Part shown: positions 22,022 to 35,879 of the stretch, piece after piece
Numbering within the stretch: position 1 is the first letter of the stretch
How the letters are laid out: each line of letters starts with the position of its first letter
DNA from: Methylophilaceae bacterium
GTDB lineage: Bacteria > Pseudomonadota > Gammaproteobacteria > Burkholderiales > Methylophilaceae
DNA length: 55,213 nucleotides
Direction: 5' to 3'
Assembly (NCBI GenBank): GCA_947451235.1
Contig: CANFZA010000005.1
Span: 1-55,213 of the forward strand
Translations under genes and position numbers: made by a program
The notes under the pieces: model-generated
Seen by the model: only the letters and a program-made list of their open reading frames with translations
Database searches by the model: none
Told to the model about the DNA's origin: nothing

Positions 22022-22124
22022 ACAAGGCCTTTCAAGTAATTATTAAATAAGATTTTTACAATTAATTTGTATAATGTAACAAATCGTAACAAATGGCAAT
22101 TTACTTATTGACTCGTTTAGAATT

Positions 22125-22152
22125 TGTCATGAATATGTCATATTAAGGTCAT
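22125..22152 (+). promoter_or_regulatory. Pho box upstream of phoB
   Basis: TGTCAT (22125), TGTCAT (22136) and GGTCAT (22147) occur in direct orientation with exact 11-bp spacing, the spacing of PhoB half-sites. It lies 88 bp before the phoB start, consistent with autoregulation of phoBR. Confidence 0.75.
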
Positions 22153-22239
22153 AAACTAAATCCGGTCAAAAATCATGTTTAACCTAAAATTCATAAAAAT
22201 TTCAAAGGTTTAGCATCCAGCTTAACAAGGATAAAAAAT

Positions 22240-22932
22240 ATGCCTGCTAATATATTAGTTGTTGAAGATGAACCAGCAATACAAGAGCTACTTGCACTCA
22301 ATATCACTCAAGCTGGGCACAATGCTATGCGTGCCTTAAGCGTAGAGATTGCAATGGATTTAATGCGCGAAACGATTCCTGATCTTATTTTATTAGATTG
22401 GATGTTGCCTGGAATGAATGGCTTAGAGTTTGCACGTAAATTAAAATCAGACTCACTCACTAAAACTATTCCTATTATCATGCTGACTGCTCGTGGCGAT
22501 GAATACGACAAAGTGCGCGGTTTAGAAGTAGGTGCAGATGACTATGTAACCAAACCGTTTAGCCCACGCGAACTCAATGCCCGCATCAAGGCTGTGTTAC
22601 GTCGCAGAGCGCCACAAATGACTGACGACCCGATTGAAGTCAATGGCTTACGCCTAGACCCCACCACACATCGCGTAACGGGTAATCAAAAAACCATAGA
22701 TTTAGGCCCGACCGAGTTCAGACTACTACATTTCTTTATGACCAATGCTGAACGTGTGCATACCCGTAGCCAGTTGTTAGACAAAGTGTGGGGTGATCGT
22801 GTGTTTGTTGAGGATCGTACGGTAGATGTGCATATTCGTCGATTACGCAACGCCCTTTCGGCTTCTGGACATGAAGATCTTATTCAAACTGTGCGTGGTG
22901 CAGGTTACCGCCTGTCATCCCAAACCAATTAA
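22240..22932 (+). CDS. phoB: phosphate-regulon response regulator PhoB
   Basis: PhoB activates the phosphate-starvation regulon after phosphorylation by PhoR. The 230 residues have a receiver domain with the phospho-acceptor aspartate in LILLDWMLPGMNG, the switch threonine in IIMLTARGDEYDKV and the lysine in DDYVTKPFSPREL, followed by an OmpR-type winged helix ending VEDRTVDVHIRRLRNAL. An AAGGA ribosome binding site precedes the ATG, phoR follows, and a Pho box lies upstream. Confidence 0.95.
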   Translation: MPANILVVEDEPAIQELLALNITQAGHNAMRALSVEIAMDLMRETIPDLILLDWMLPGMNGLEFARKLKSDSLTKTIPIIMLTARGDEYDKVRGLEVGADDYVTKPFSPRELNARIKAVLRRRAPQMTDDPIEVNGLRLDPTTHRVTGNQKTIDLGPTEFRLLHFFMTNAERVHTRSQLLDKVWGDRVFVEDRTVDVHIRRLRNALSASGHEDLIQTVRGAGYRLSSQTN

Positions 22933-23015: not shown

Positions 23016-24365
23016 GTGCTAGATATTCGTTTAAAAGCTGGTTTACTTGTTGCTGCTCTAAGCATAATTTGTGTGTTCTTATGGCTTATCAGCAGCGCCA
23101 TGACAGCATTACTTGTATTCACTTCAATCCTTATACTCTACCTCTTTAGCCATATTTTTTGGCTACACAAACTACTTTTCTGGTTCAAAAAACCTACTCT
23201 CAAAGAAATTCCAGAAGGCTCAGGAATATGGGAAGATGTTTTTGATGCGCTATTAAAATATGAGCGTAATAATAATCTAAATCAAATAAAACTAAACTCA
23301 GCTCTTGAACGCTTCAATCTCACGGCTAATGCTGTTCCTGATGGCTTGGTCATTTTAGGTAATGTAAACCAGATTGAGTGGTGTACGGCTAATGCTGAAA
23401 ATCAGCTAGGGCTTAATTTAGACACAGATAAAAACTTGCCTATCGTCAACTTAATTAGGGACAGCCATTTTATTGCTTATCTTTACAGCGAAGTTTATAC
23501 CGAGCCCCTGAAACTTAAACACTGCAGAAACTCTGATGCTACGCTTGAGATTCAAGTGATACCCCTAGCATCTAAACAAAAACTATTAATTAGTCGAGAC
23601 ATGACGCAGTTGGAAAAAGTGGATGTGATGCGTCGAGATTTTATTGCCAACGTGTCGCATGAGCTTAGAACGCCATTAACTGTAGTAGGCGGATTTTTAG
23701 AAACACTAACTGATATGGACGGCGCAGTTCCAGATAATTTAAAAAATTATTTTGGTTTGATGCAAGAGCAAACGGGGCGTATGCGTCGCATTATTGAAGA
23801 TTTACTCACACTATCCACCATAGAAAGCAGTACTGGCAACCCAAATAACAATGAAATTGATATGCATGGCTTGTTAAAATCCATACAAAAAGATGCCATT
23901 AATTTCAGCCAAGGCCTACATCAAAATGTAAAACGCGCTAAACATCATATCCGCTTAGAAGCCGACGCTAATCTCAACTTACGCGGATCACTTGAGGAGT
24001 TGCGTAGCGCCTTCACCAACTTAGTTAGCAATGCTATTCGTTATACACCTACGAGTGATGCAAACAATAGCGGTGAAATACTTATCAGCTGGTATTTACA
24101 AGATGACCAAGCCGTTTTTTCAGTGCGTGACACCGGCATAGGTATAGAAGAAAAACATATAGACAGACTTACCGAGCGCTTCTATCGAGTTGATCGCAGT
24201 AGAAGCCGTGAAACCGGCGGCACCGGTCTAGGACTATCTATTGTTAAACATATTTTAATTCGCCATCAAGCTAAACTGGAAATTACCAGTATATTAGGCA
24301 CCGGTAGCGCATTCAGTATTAAGTTTCCAAAAGCAAGAGTAGTAAAAAAACAGGTGGGCGTTTAA
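23016..24365 (+). CDS. phoR: phosphate-regulon sensor kinase PhoR
   Basis: PhoR is the membrane histidine kinase partner of PhoB. The 449 residues start with two adjacent membrane helices (VAALSIICVFLWLISSAMTALLVFTSILILYLF), then a PhoR linker and PAS-like domain (to about residue 195), a HisKA domain with the phospho-histidine in NVSHELRTPLTVVGGF, and an ATPase domain with N, G1 and G2 boxes (NLVSNAIRYTP, VRDTGIGIEE, GGTGLGLSIVK). The start is GTG. There is no large periplasmic loop, typical of PhoR. The 83-bp gap from phoB fits one operon. Confidence 0.94.
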   Translation: MLDIRLKAGLLVAALSIICVFLWLISSAMTALLVFTSILILYLFSHIFWLHKLLFWFKKPTLKEIPEGSGIWEDVFDALLKYERNNNLNQIKLNSALERFNLTANAVPDGLVILGNVNQIEWCTANAENQLGLNLDTDKNLPIVNLIRDSHFIAYLYSEVYTEPLKLKHCRNSDATLEIQVIPLASKQKLLISRDMTQLEKVDVMRRDFIANVSHELRTPLTVVGGFLETLTDMDGAVPDNLKNYFGLMQEQTGRMRRIIEDLLTLSTIESSTGNPNNNEIDMHGLLKSIQKDAINFSQGLHQNVKRAKHHIRLEADANLNLRGSLEELRSAFTNLVSNAIRYTPTSDANNSGEILISWYLQDDQAVFSVRDTGIGIEEKHIDRLTERFYRVDRSRSRETGGTGLGLSIVKHILIRHQAKLEITSILGTGSAFSIKFPKARVVKKQVGV

Positions 24366-25109
24366 GTGGCGTACGCTCTTAAAAGCTCGGTTAGTTTTTT
24401 CTTGCTTTTAACACTGTCATCGTGTGCAAGCACAAACCTTACTACAGTTGATTCAAACGCAAAAAAACCAGTCCCTGCACGTCAGGATCGTAGCTCGATG
24501 GGGCAACTGGTGAAGACAGATTTTGACCGACTGGCCGACGTAGAAATACGTGAAAATACAGAAAGTTTACGCGCACTAATGCTTAAACTTTACAAACGTA
24601 ACCCGCGCGAATTACAAAAAAGCACCCCAGATAGTCCTGAAAAAATGGTGGCATGGGTAATAGATGGCGAATCACAGCATCATTACAAATTCAGCGAAAT
24701 TAATAACCTACAAGGGACTGAAGCTATTTTCTTAGCCTTTAAAAGCGACTATAAAGGCGACCGCGTTTTGCCTTTTATTGTTGGCATTCAAACCATGTTG
24801 ATAAAGGCGCATGGCGGAAAATCGGACTTTTACTTTACCGATAACATAGACCCACAATCTATGTATAACGTCGCTAGAAATATTGAAATAGCAGCATGGA
24901 AACTATCGAACGCTAGAGACGAGCTTGGTGTACTTTATCTACTGACTAATGAAAGCAATGACAAAGATAAGAACTTATCATTTGAGCGTGAGTTTGGAAA
25001 AATGATAGGACGCACAGATTTGTACGCCATTGGTTTAGCAGAAAAATCGCAGCGATTCATTTCACGCGTGATGCAAAACATCACAACTGCGCTATTTTTA
25101 CCTTTTTAG
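24366..25109 (+). CDS. predicted lipoprotein, 247 residues, unknown function
   Basis: The N-terminus is a lipoprotein signal with the lipobox TLSSCAS (cysteine near residue 20). The mature part is a soluble domain with the region WVIDGESQHHYKFSEINNLQGTEAIFLAF and a hydrophobic helix-rich middle. I do not know its function. Its GTG start codon follows the phoR stop directly with no spacer, so it is translated with phoBR and likely shares the Pho-box promoter; a phosphate-linked envelope role is an inference. A 14-bp tandem duplication spans its stop codon. Confidence 0.8.
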   Translation: MAYALKSSVSFFLLLTLSSCASTNLTTVDSNAKKPVPARQDRSSMGQLVKTDFDRLADVEIRENTESLRALMLKLYKRNPRELQKSTPDSPEKMVAWVIDGESQHHYKFSEINNLQGTEAIFLAFKSDYKGDRVLPFIVGIQTMLIKAHGGKSDFYFTDNIDPQSMYNVARNIEIAAWKLSNARDELGVLYLLTNESNDKDKNLSFEREFGKMIGRTDLYAIGLAEKSQRFISRVMQNITTALFLPF

Positions 25110-34080: not shown

Positions 34081-34122
34081 AAGCTGGAATCACACGATTA
34101 CCTTGTGTGATTCCAGCTTTTC
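34081..34122 (+). terminator. terminator after the glycine-zipper lipoprotein gene
   Basis: Perfect 15-bp stem AAGCTGGAATCACAC-N9-GTGTGATTCCAGCTT followed by TTTC. The stem is strong though the T tract is short. Confidence 0.75.
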
Positions 34123-34135
34123 AAATTGATGTGAC

Positions 34136-34163
34136 TGTAAAAAAATAGTCACATTACTGTCAT
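34136..34163 (+). promoter_or_regulatory. probable Pho box upstream of olsB-olsA
   Basis: TGTAAA (34136), AGTCAC (34147) and TGTCAT (34158) are direct half-sites spaced exactly 11 bp apart, each matching TGTMAY at five or six positions. The last ends 53 bp before the olsB start codon. Confidence 0.6.
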
Positions 34164-34216
34164 CATTTGTTAACCTCAATTAATTAAAGTCTCCTTAATC
34201 TTAAAGGAGAAATTTC

Positions 34217-35005
34217 ATGGTTGGTAAAGATTTCACTGTACTTGAAAATACAAATGAACAGAGCCGTAAGCAAATTGAGTTGCAACAATCTCTGCAAAGA
34301 AGACTTTGCATTAGCCTTGCACGCACTCAGGCAGAAATTGAAGAAGCACAACGCTTGCGTTACAAAGTGTTCGCAGAAGAAATGGGCGCACAAGTATCTG
34401 GTACTGATGGCCTAGATGTTGACGGTTTTGATCAATTTTGTGACCATTTGATTGTACGTGATAGTGAAACTAACCAAGTAATCGGTACTTACCGTATTCT
34501 AAGCCCAGAAAAAGCCAATGAAGCTGGTGGTTATTATTCTGCTGGCGAATTTGATTTAAGCCGCTTAGCACATTTATTTGATCGCACCGTAGAGGTTGGT
34601 CGTGCCTGTGTACACCAAAACTATCGCAACGGCGGCACTATCACTATGCTATGGGCTGGCCTTGCTAAATACATGAAACTTAACAATTACGAGTACATGA
34701 TAGGCTGCGGTAGCCTGAGTATGTCTGACGGTGGACACGCTGCAGCTAGCTTGTATCAAAAACTACAAGACGATTACTTATCACCGATTGAATATCGCGT
34801 ATTTGCGCGTAATCCATTGCCAATCAAATCATTACGCACTGACATGCAAGTGGCTTGCCCACCATTAATTAAAGGCTATTTACGCCTTGGTGCTTATATT
34901 TGTGGTGAACCAGCATGGGATCCCTATTTCAACACAGCCGATATGCTGGTAATGTTACCTTTATCTAGAATCAACCCAAGATATGCTGCACACTTTTTAA
35001 AATAA
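34217..35005 (+). CDS. olsB: L-ornithine N(alpha)-acyltransferase OlsB
   Basis: OlsB adds a 3-hydroxyacyl chain from acyl-ACP to ornithine, forming lyso-ornithine lipid. The 262-residue GNAT-fold protein has RLRYKVFAEEMGAQ, the DHLIVRDSETNQVIGTYRIL strand, VEVGRACVHQNYRNGGTITMLWAGLAKYM and the C-terminal GEPAWDPYFNTADMLVMLPL segment, typical of OlsB/COG3176 rather than of acylhomoserine-lactone synthases, which share the fold. An AAAGGAGA ribosome binding site precedes the ATG. It is followed by olsA and preceded by a probable Pho box, so phosphate control is likely. Confidence 0.88.
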   Translation: MVGKDFTVLENTNEQSRKQIELQQSLQRRLCISLARTQAEIEEAQRLRYKVFAEEMGAQVSGTDGLDVDGFDQFCDHLIVRDSETNQVIGTYRILSPEKANEAGGYYSAGEFDLSRLAHLFDRTVEVGRACVHQNYRNGGTITMLWAGLAKYMKLNNYEYMIGCGSLSMSDGGHAAASLYQKLQDDYLSPIEYRVFARNPLPIKSLRTDMQVACPPLIKGYLRLGAYICGEPAWDPYFNTADMLVMLPLSRINPRYAAHFLK

Positions 35006-35033
35006 GAGGCTTGCGACTCATCGCTCAATTACT

Positions 35034-35879
35034 TTGCAATCATTAAATATAAACGACATTAATACTGACTTAATTCTTACCGGTAAAATTACACGTTATT
35101 TTAGAATTGGTCGGGTAGCATCACACACACTAGCAGGGGTAATTATTGCATCCACAATATTACCTCTGGCTAGCAAACCACTAAAAAGATGCATCATCAA
35201 ATGGTGGAGTACGCGCTTATTAGCGGCATTCAATATTCGAGTTATTTCTCATGGCCATATTCCACAAGCAAAAGACCGATTAAAAACCACAATGTTTGTG
35301 GCTAATCATATCTCTTGGACCGACGTGCATGCGCTTAATAGCTTAATCGCGTTAAGATTTGTAGCAAAGTCTGAAATAAGAAGTTGGCCAGTGATTGGCT
35401 TTTTAACGTATAAAGCCAACGCCCTTTTTATAGATCGCGCCAAGCGTCAAGATGCTGGACGCATTGTGAATACGGCTGCGCATAGCTTGAAATCTGGTGA
35501 TAATTTATGCTTTTTCCCAGAAGGCACCACCACAGATGGCACCGAAATAAAGCGTTTTAAGAGTAGCCTAATTCAAGCTGCCATAGAAACAAATGCCACG
35601 ATTAGACCGGTTGCAATTCGCTACCCAATGCCTAATGGTAGCGCCAACATTAGGCTTGCATATGCCGGAGAAACAACCATGCTGGAATCAATGCGGCAAA
35701 TATTGTCGCAAAAAAATCCAGTGGTTGAACTGTTCTTTTTAGCACCGATTATTGTTGAAGAACTAGCAGAACAAGATAAAGATCGTAGATCTCTTACACA
35801 TAGCGTTGAATATTTGATTCGGCACACATTGGACCTACATTTTCAGCCTATTATAGACAGCACCGTTAAAGCCAATTAA
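35034..35879 (+). CDS. olsA: 1-acyl-glycerol-3-phosphate / lyso-ornithine lipid acyltransferase
   Basis: An acyltransferase of the PlsC superfamily, with the catalytic HX4D motif in VANHISWTDVHAL and the acceptor-site motif in CFFPEGTTTDGTEIKRF. An N-terminal hydrophobic stretch (TLAGVIIASTILPLASKP) probably anchors it to the membrane. Right after olsB it is best read as OlsA, which completes ornithine lipid by a second acylation; a PlsC-like role is possible. The start is uncertain: TTG at 35034 has no clear ribosome binding site and there is no in-frame ATG nearby. Confidence 0.85.
   Translation: MQSLNINDINTDLILTGKITRYFRIGRVASHTLAGVIIASTILPLASKPLKRCIIKWWSTRLLAAFNIRVISHGHIPQAKDRLKTTMFVANHISWTDVHALNSLIALRFVAKSEIRSWPVIGFLTYKANALFIDRAKRQDAGRIVNTAAHSLKSGDNLCFFPEGTTTDGTEIKRFKSSLIQAAIETNATIRPVAIRYPMPNGSANIRLAYAGETTMLESMRQILSQKNPVVELFFLAPIIVEELAEQDKDRRSLTHSVEYLIRHTLDLHFQPIIDSTVKAN

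Follow-up and report, generated by a model that had tools for sequence, protein, structure and literature searches.

Does phosphate limitation switch on a pair of genes resembling olsB and olsA in this methylotroph, and would a phosphorus-free lipid be the outcome? The window, by which we mean the whole stretch of 55,213 nucleotides that we analysed, is contig 5 of a 2.54-Mb genome that is 91% complete and belongs to a Methylotenera-like member of the Methylophilaceae, with Methylotenera sp. as its nearest named relatives. In a profile search, the best models for the olsB product were two OlsB equivalogs, named for Brucella and Rhodobacter (186 and 173 bits, E values of 9e-55 and 1e-50, against cut-offs of 320 and 350), while the olsA product reached 130 and 121 bits with the OlsA models, also below cut-off. 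As the two products stay below the NCBIfam cut-offs for OlsB and OlsA, the head group of the predicted lipid is not certain. Both OL and LL aminolipids are reported to be olsB-dependent (PMC11828411), and amino acids besides ornithine may serve as OlsB substrates. Among solved structures, OlsB showed a weak similarity to LasI. The two genes lie 28 bp apart and probably form an operon (Table 1). A perfect hairpin upstream of them is the probable terminator of the preceding gene, and because it would end the upstream transcript, the Pho promoter described below is the likely start of olsBA.

Table 1. Features of the window and of the phospholipase locus elsewhere in the genome (feature, position, strand, basis)
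phoB Pho box with -10 (TAAACT, 22152)	22114-22157	+	best site of the window
phoB, response regulator	22240-22932	+	TIGR02154, 349 bits (cut-off 296)
phoR, sensor kinase	23016-24365	+	TIGR02966, 396 bits (cut-off 334)
Perfect hairpin, 15 bp, loop of 9, 3' of preceding gene	34081-34119	+	direct reading
olsB Pho box, half-sites TGTAAA / AGTCAC / TGTCAT / GTTAAC	34136-34174	+	reading, matrix, conservation
olsB -10 hexamer TAAAGT	34185-34190	+	exactly 10 bp past last half-site
Ribosome-binding site AAAGGAG before olsB	34203-34209	+	by eye
olsB-like amino-acid N-acyltransferase (Acetyltransf_5)	34217-35005	+	profile search, two OlsB equivalogs best
olsA-like lyso-lipid O-acyltransferase	35034-35879	+	best models OlsA
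Glycosyltransferase (GT4)	L322:41-1363, contig C110	-	NCBIfam best model
PF00882 zinc phospholipase C	L322:1478-2347, contig C110	+	domain match

The olsB promoter (34136-34190) reads TGTAAAAAAAT AGTCACATTAC TGTCATCATTT GTTAAC CTCAATTAAT TAAAGT, and its half-sites start at 34136, 34147, 34158 and 34169, that is, in exact 11-bp steps. The preliminary description had counted three TGTMAY-like half-sites; these three and their spacing stand, the third ending 53 bp before the ATG of olsB (34217), but the count must be raised to four, as GTTAAC at 34169 had been missed. Only the third (TGTCAT) is a perfect TGTMAY. The first, TGTAAA, is weaker than the TGTCAA of the relatives, and the fourth, also weaker, is kept in them. 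No -35 hexamer was recognisable in the olsB promoter of the window. In 78 of 80 olsB promoters, the window's included, a TAnnnT -10 lies exactly 10 bp past a half-site of the array; in the relatives it is as a rule TAAAGT, TAACAT or TAATAT, preceded by three or four half-sites depending on the genus. The same 10-bp spacing is found at the phoB promoter in 30 of 30 genomes, all of which keep the phoB box, and at the pstS promoter of our own genome. A bound PhoB dimer replaces the -35 contact in the accepted mechanism of PhoB action, and the fixed distance between half-site and -10 fits this mechanism. We also observed a perfect inverted repeat, TGTGACT-N10-AGTCACA (window 34130-34153), that overlaps the first half-sites and is not evident in the promoters of the relatives.

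From the array, its spacing and conservation, the regulator genes and the gene content, we infer PhoB binding, induction and the lipid product, and we consider it very likely that 34136-34190 serves an olsB-olsA operon as a promoter activated by PhoB, and that this operon would supply a phosphorus-free lipid under phosphate limitation. On this model, PhoR would phosphorylate PhoB when phosphate is limiting, and PhoB dimers would occupy the half-sites repeated every 11 bp before olsB; the last of these, 10 bp before the -10, would stand in for the -35 element and recruit RNA polymerase. OlsB would then attach an acyl chain to an amino acid, either ornithine or one like it, and OlsA would attach the second chain, giving a lipid free of phosphorus and sparing phosphate. 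The box could also be real and PhoB merely add to an expression of olsBA that is for the most part constitutive, as it is in Burkholderia sensu stricto; Pho boxes are reported before olsB even where ornithine lipids are produced all the time (PMC7814305), yet an olsB promoter lacking a recognisable -35, with its -10 tied to the array, suggests dependence on an activator, and we regard constitutive expression as unlikely.

The proposed PhoB-activated promoter of olsBA has counterparts elsewhere in the genome. Within the window, as the preliminary description had it, phoB and phoR lie together with a Pho box of their own, and both genes score over the curated cut-offs; the 247-aa open reading frame directly 3' of phoR (window 24366-25109) had no match in Pfam or NCBIfam. 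We searched the 2.54-Mb genome with a composite pattern made of two half-sites, 10 bp and TAnnnT. Perfect matches were obtained for phoB and pstS only; a match with one mismatch precedes a Na/Pi symporter locus, and matches with two mismatches precede olsB, phoU, ppk and a GT4 glycosyltransferase gene. At two mismatches the pattern gave 56 matches against 44 for the reversed control and is by itself not specific, and such matches are named here only where gene and position fit. The perfect composite promoter of pstSCAB, 44 bp before pstS (L242:1390-1433), sits directly behind the gene of a PitA-type phosphate transporter. A composite promoter with a perfect TATAAT precedes the genes of a further protein and a Na/Pi symporter (L325:147-2417). 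Jointly with the promoter reading, and with the same high confidence, we place olsBA in a wider predicted Pho regulon comprising phoBR, pstSCAB, phoU, ppk and the Na/Pi symporter, together with a zinc phospholipase C and its glycosyltransferase; the promoter rule of half-sites, 10 bp and -10 yields a list of candidate Pho genes.

Binding to tandem half-sites is common to regulators of the OmpR family, the relatives that we checked carry further genes of this family, and a different member could occupy the array and make olsBA respond to another stress. We find this very improbable, because our half-site matrix was built from phoB and pstS promoters only, taken from other genomes with olsB and our own genome excluded, and because the remaining composite promoters that are suitably placed belong to phosphate genes.

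Scanned with this matrix for PhoB sites, the window had phoB and olsB as its top two places: over about 110,000 positions the phoB box scored 27.7, the olsB box 15.9 and the next independent place 10.1. About 5% of random 55-kb windows hold a site that scores like the olsB box, and the motif alone, in a blind 55-kb scan, cannot prove the olsB site. It is its position and conservation that make it significant. A triple as good as the olsB box is expected 1.7e-4 times per 200 bp. In 78 of 79 related olsB loci, spanning Methylotenera to Methylophilus, Methylovorus and Methylobacillus, the box outscored every other place of the locus, both strands included; its median score was 19.0, versus 8.3 for the strongest competing site of each locus. 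Scores were low (7-8) in two Methylobacillus loci. The preliminary description had named a lack of conserved spaced half-sites in relatives as part of what would refute its reading; the half-sites are conserved, and the array, its conservation and the phoBR genes in the window together support, from sequence, the lipid-remodelling response that it had proposed. A chance resemblance of AT-rich intergenic DNA to a Pho box, for which the frequency of such scores in blind scans might speak, is extremely improbable given this conservation and the low expectation at this very place. In a simpler scan of the whole genome for three half-sites, phoB was best (one mismatch) and five places had two mismatches, among which olsB was the sole one seen before a phosphate-related or lipid gene. 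None of the other four is followed by a fitting gene, and a match before the ATP synthase genes (contig C29), together with several intragenic matches, was set aside as likely chance.

Among the relatives, two small-genome genera (about 1.3 Mb) carry olsB 3' of a gene for a PlcP-like metallophosphoesterase, with ppx nearby and, in one case, ppk too. Most of them have lost the box at olsB or have a weak one there, but a box precedes the plcP-like gene: triples before plcP score 21-22 in one genus and doubles 10-17 in the other, against a 99th percentile of 9.3-9.4 in the shuffle control. The idea that these relatives lack phoB was dropped, as a model search found a PhoB-like regulator in every one of 12 genomes, with six scoring slightly below the curated cut-off. 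Four of these loci (L260, L261, L262 and L263) combine the plcP-olsB pair with a divergent olsA and a neighbouring ppx, and in one of them ppk and a gene resembling dgkA lie there as well; in G006 (L261), a stop or a change of frame breaks the plcP-like gene.

The more interesting result than the olsB box is the pair formed by the phospholipase C and the glycosyltransferase. In our genome the two genes are divergent, with Pho boxes between them. The best NCBIfam model for the glycosyltransferase is an alpha-monoglucosyldiacylglycerol synthase (130 bits versus a cut-off of 400), and the PF00882 domain of the predicted phospholipase scores 68 bits (gathering score 26.8). Relatives with longer contigs carry the pair next to pstSCAB or close to it; for our genome, where it stands on contig C110 and pst on contig C128, we infer this linkage. 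The zinc enzyme has a likely signal peptide ending in ANA, followed by a Trp, the predicted mature N-terminus. A set of residues (W, H, D, H, H, D, H, H, E) is near-invariant in 21 Methylophilaceae zinc enzymes and without exception in a set of 26 sequences, all but one (25) from other Burkholderiales families; it matches the zinc-ligand pattern of Bacillus cereus PLC. Solved structures offered nothing relevant for the zinc phospholipase. A Pho-box array precedes the zinc enzyme gene in 42 of 44 Methylophilaceae promoters, with CAnnnT or TAnnnT 10 bp past it in 39, and outside the family the array is found in 22 of 25 loci and a related glycosyltransferase adjoins in 19 of the 25. In many genomes (L322:1447-1489 and relatives), only some 6-8 bases separate the end of the -10 of the phospholipase promoter from the ATG, so its mRNA may be leaderless. 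Predicted export, the Pho box and the pairing with a glycosyltransferase suggest that the zinc enzyme acts on the cell's own membrane, and the two proteins could convert phospholipids into sugar lipids. We found no PF00882 enzyme linked to PhoB-driven remodelling in the open literature, and the gene pair is apparently undescribed so far.

Does this enzyme take the place of PlcP? A homology search of our genome gave no PlcP at E <= 1e-15. Across 187 Methylophilaceae genomes, PlcP-like proteins, identified by resemblance to a query that is itself PlcP-like and not a characterised reference, were detected in 24, compared with 116 that have the zinc enzyme; just one of 52 Methylotenera genomes has a PlcP-like protein. 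Among the 144 genomes carrying the glycosyltransferase, the zinc enzyme stands alone in 112 and PlcP in 22, one has both and nine have neither (Fisher p about 1e-17, a value inflated by kinship). The same glycosyltransferase adjoins plcP in several PlcP genera (G035, G036, G037, G046, G049). Since the two phospholipases are hardly ever found together and each can have the same glycosyltransferase as its partner, the zinc enzyme appears to replace PlcP in lipid remodelling. The glycosyltransferase tree needs four changes of partner type, at least three of them forced by well-supported branches, and both types are found within one genus (G036 and G037 versus G038), a pattern that we read as repeated non-homologous replacement between PlcP and the zinc enzyme. 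With moderate confidence we propose that most Methylophilaceae, and probably other Burkholderiales families too, use an exported, PhoB-controlled PF00882 enzyme instead of the unrelated PlcP. This enzyme would free diacylglycerol from the cell's own phospholipids, and the glycosyltransferase would turn the diacylglycerol into a glycolipid, alongside the ornithine lipids of olsBA.

Methylophilaceae are common in lakes, where phosphorus often limits. If our proposal is true, they swap phospholipids for ornithine lipids and glycolipids when phosphorus is low, and surveys that use PlcP as the marker of lipid remodelling overlook most of them, and perhaps other Burkholderiales, because a different phospholipase is in use.

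A PhoB-type olsB promoter is already known elsewhere. In Burkholderia sensu lato, a Pho box before olsB was predicted in 21 of 43 genomes, and in 43 of 43 with a refined matrix (PMC7814305); in Acinetobacter, a Pho box is likewise predicted before olsB, and the aminolipid needs phoR (PMC11828411). Tandem half-sites in 11-bp steps and a phosphate-responsive regulator are common to these systems and ours. Here the lineage, one of methylotrophs, is new, and an array of three to four half-sites is locked to the -10; moreover, olsA follows olsB at 28 bp, whereas the olsA of A. baumannii lacks a Pho box and shows no induction (PMC11828411). In the open papers searched we found no report of ols genes in Methylophilaceae or Methylotenera, and to that extent the earlier statement that such a remodelling response was undescribed for this lineage holds. 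Remodelling as such had been hinted at by plcP transcripts assigned to Methylotenera in Lake Washington (PMC9239053). Under phosphate stress, PlcP and glycolipids have been described in marine bacteria as well as in methanotrophs (PMC4796936, PMC8528852, PMC9239053). With the PlcP-Agt remodelling of SAR11, other marine bacteria, Pseudomonas and methanotrophs, our pair shares a predicted phospholipase beside a glycosyltransferase that resembles the glycolipid type, and a probable tie to phosphate starvation, and some Methylophilaceae genera do have a PlcP-like protein with the same glycosyltransferase; most, our genome included, have no detectable PlcP and instead an export-type PF00882 enzyme. 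Compared with the bacterial PF00882 phospholipases C, the domain, the N-terminal Trp and the pattern of His, Asp and Glu ligands are kept, but here the enzyme belongs to a Gram-negative methylotroph, is predicted to be exported, and comes with a Pho box and a glycosyltransferase partner.
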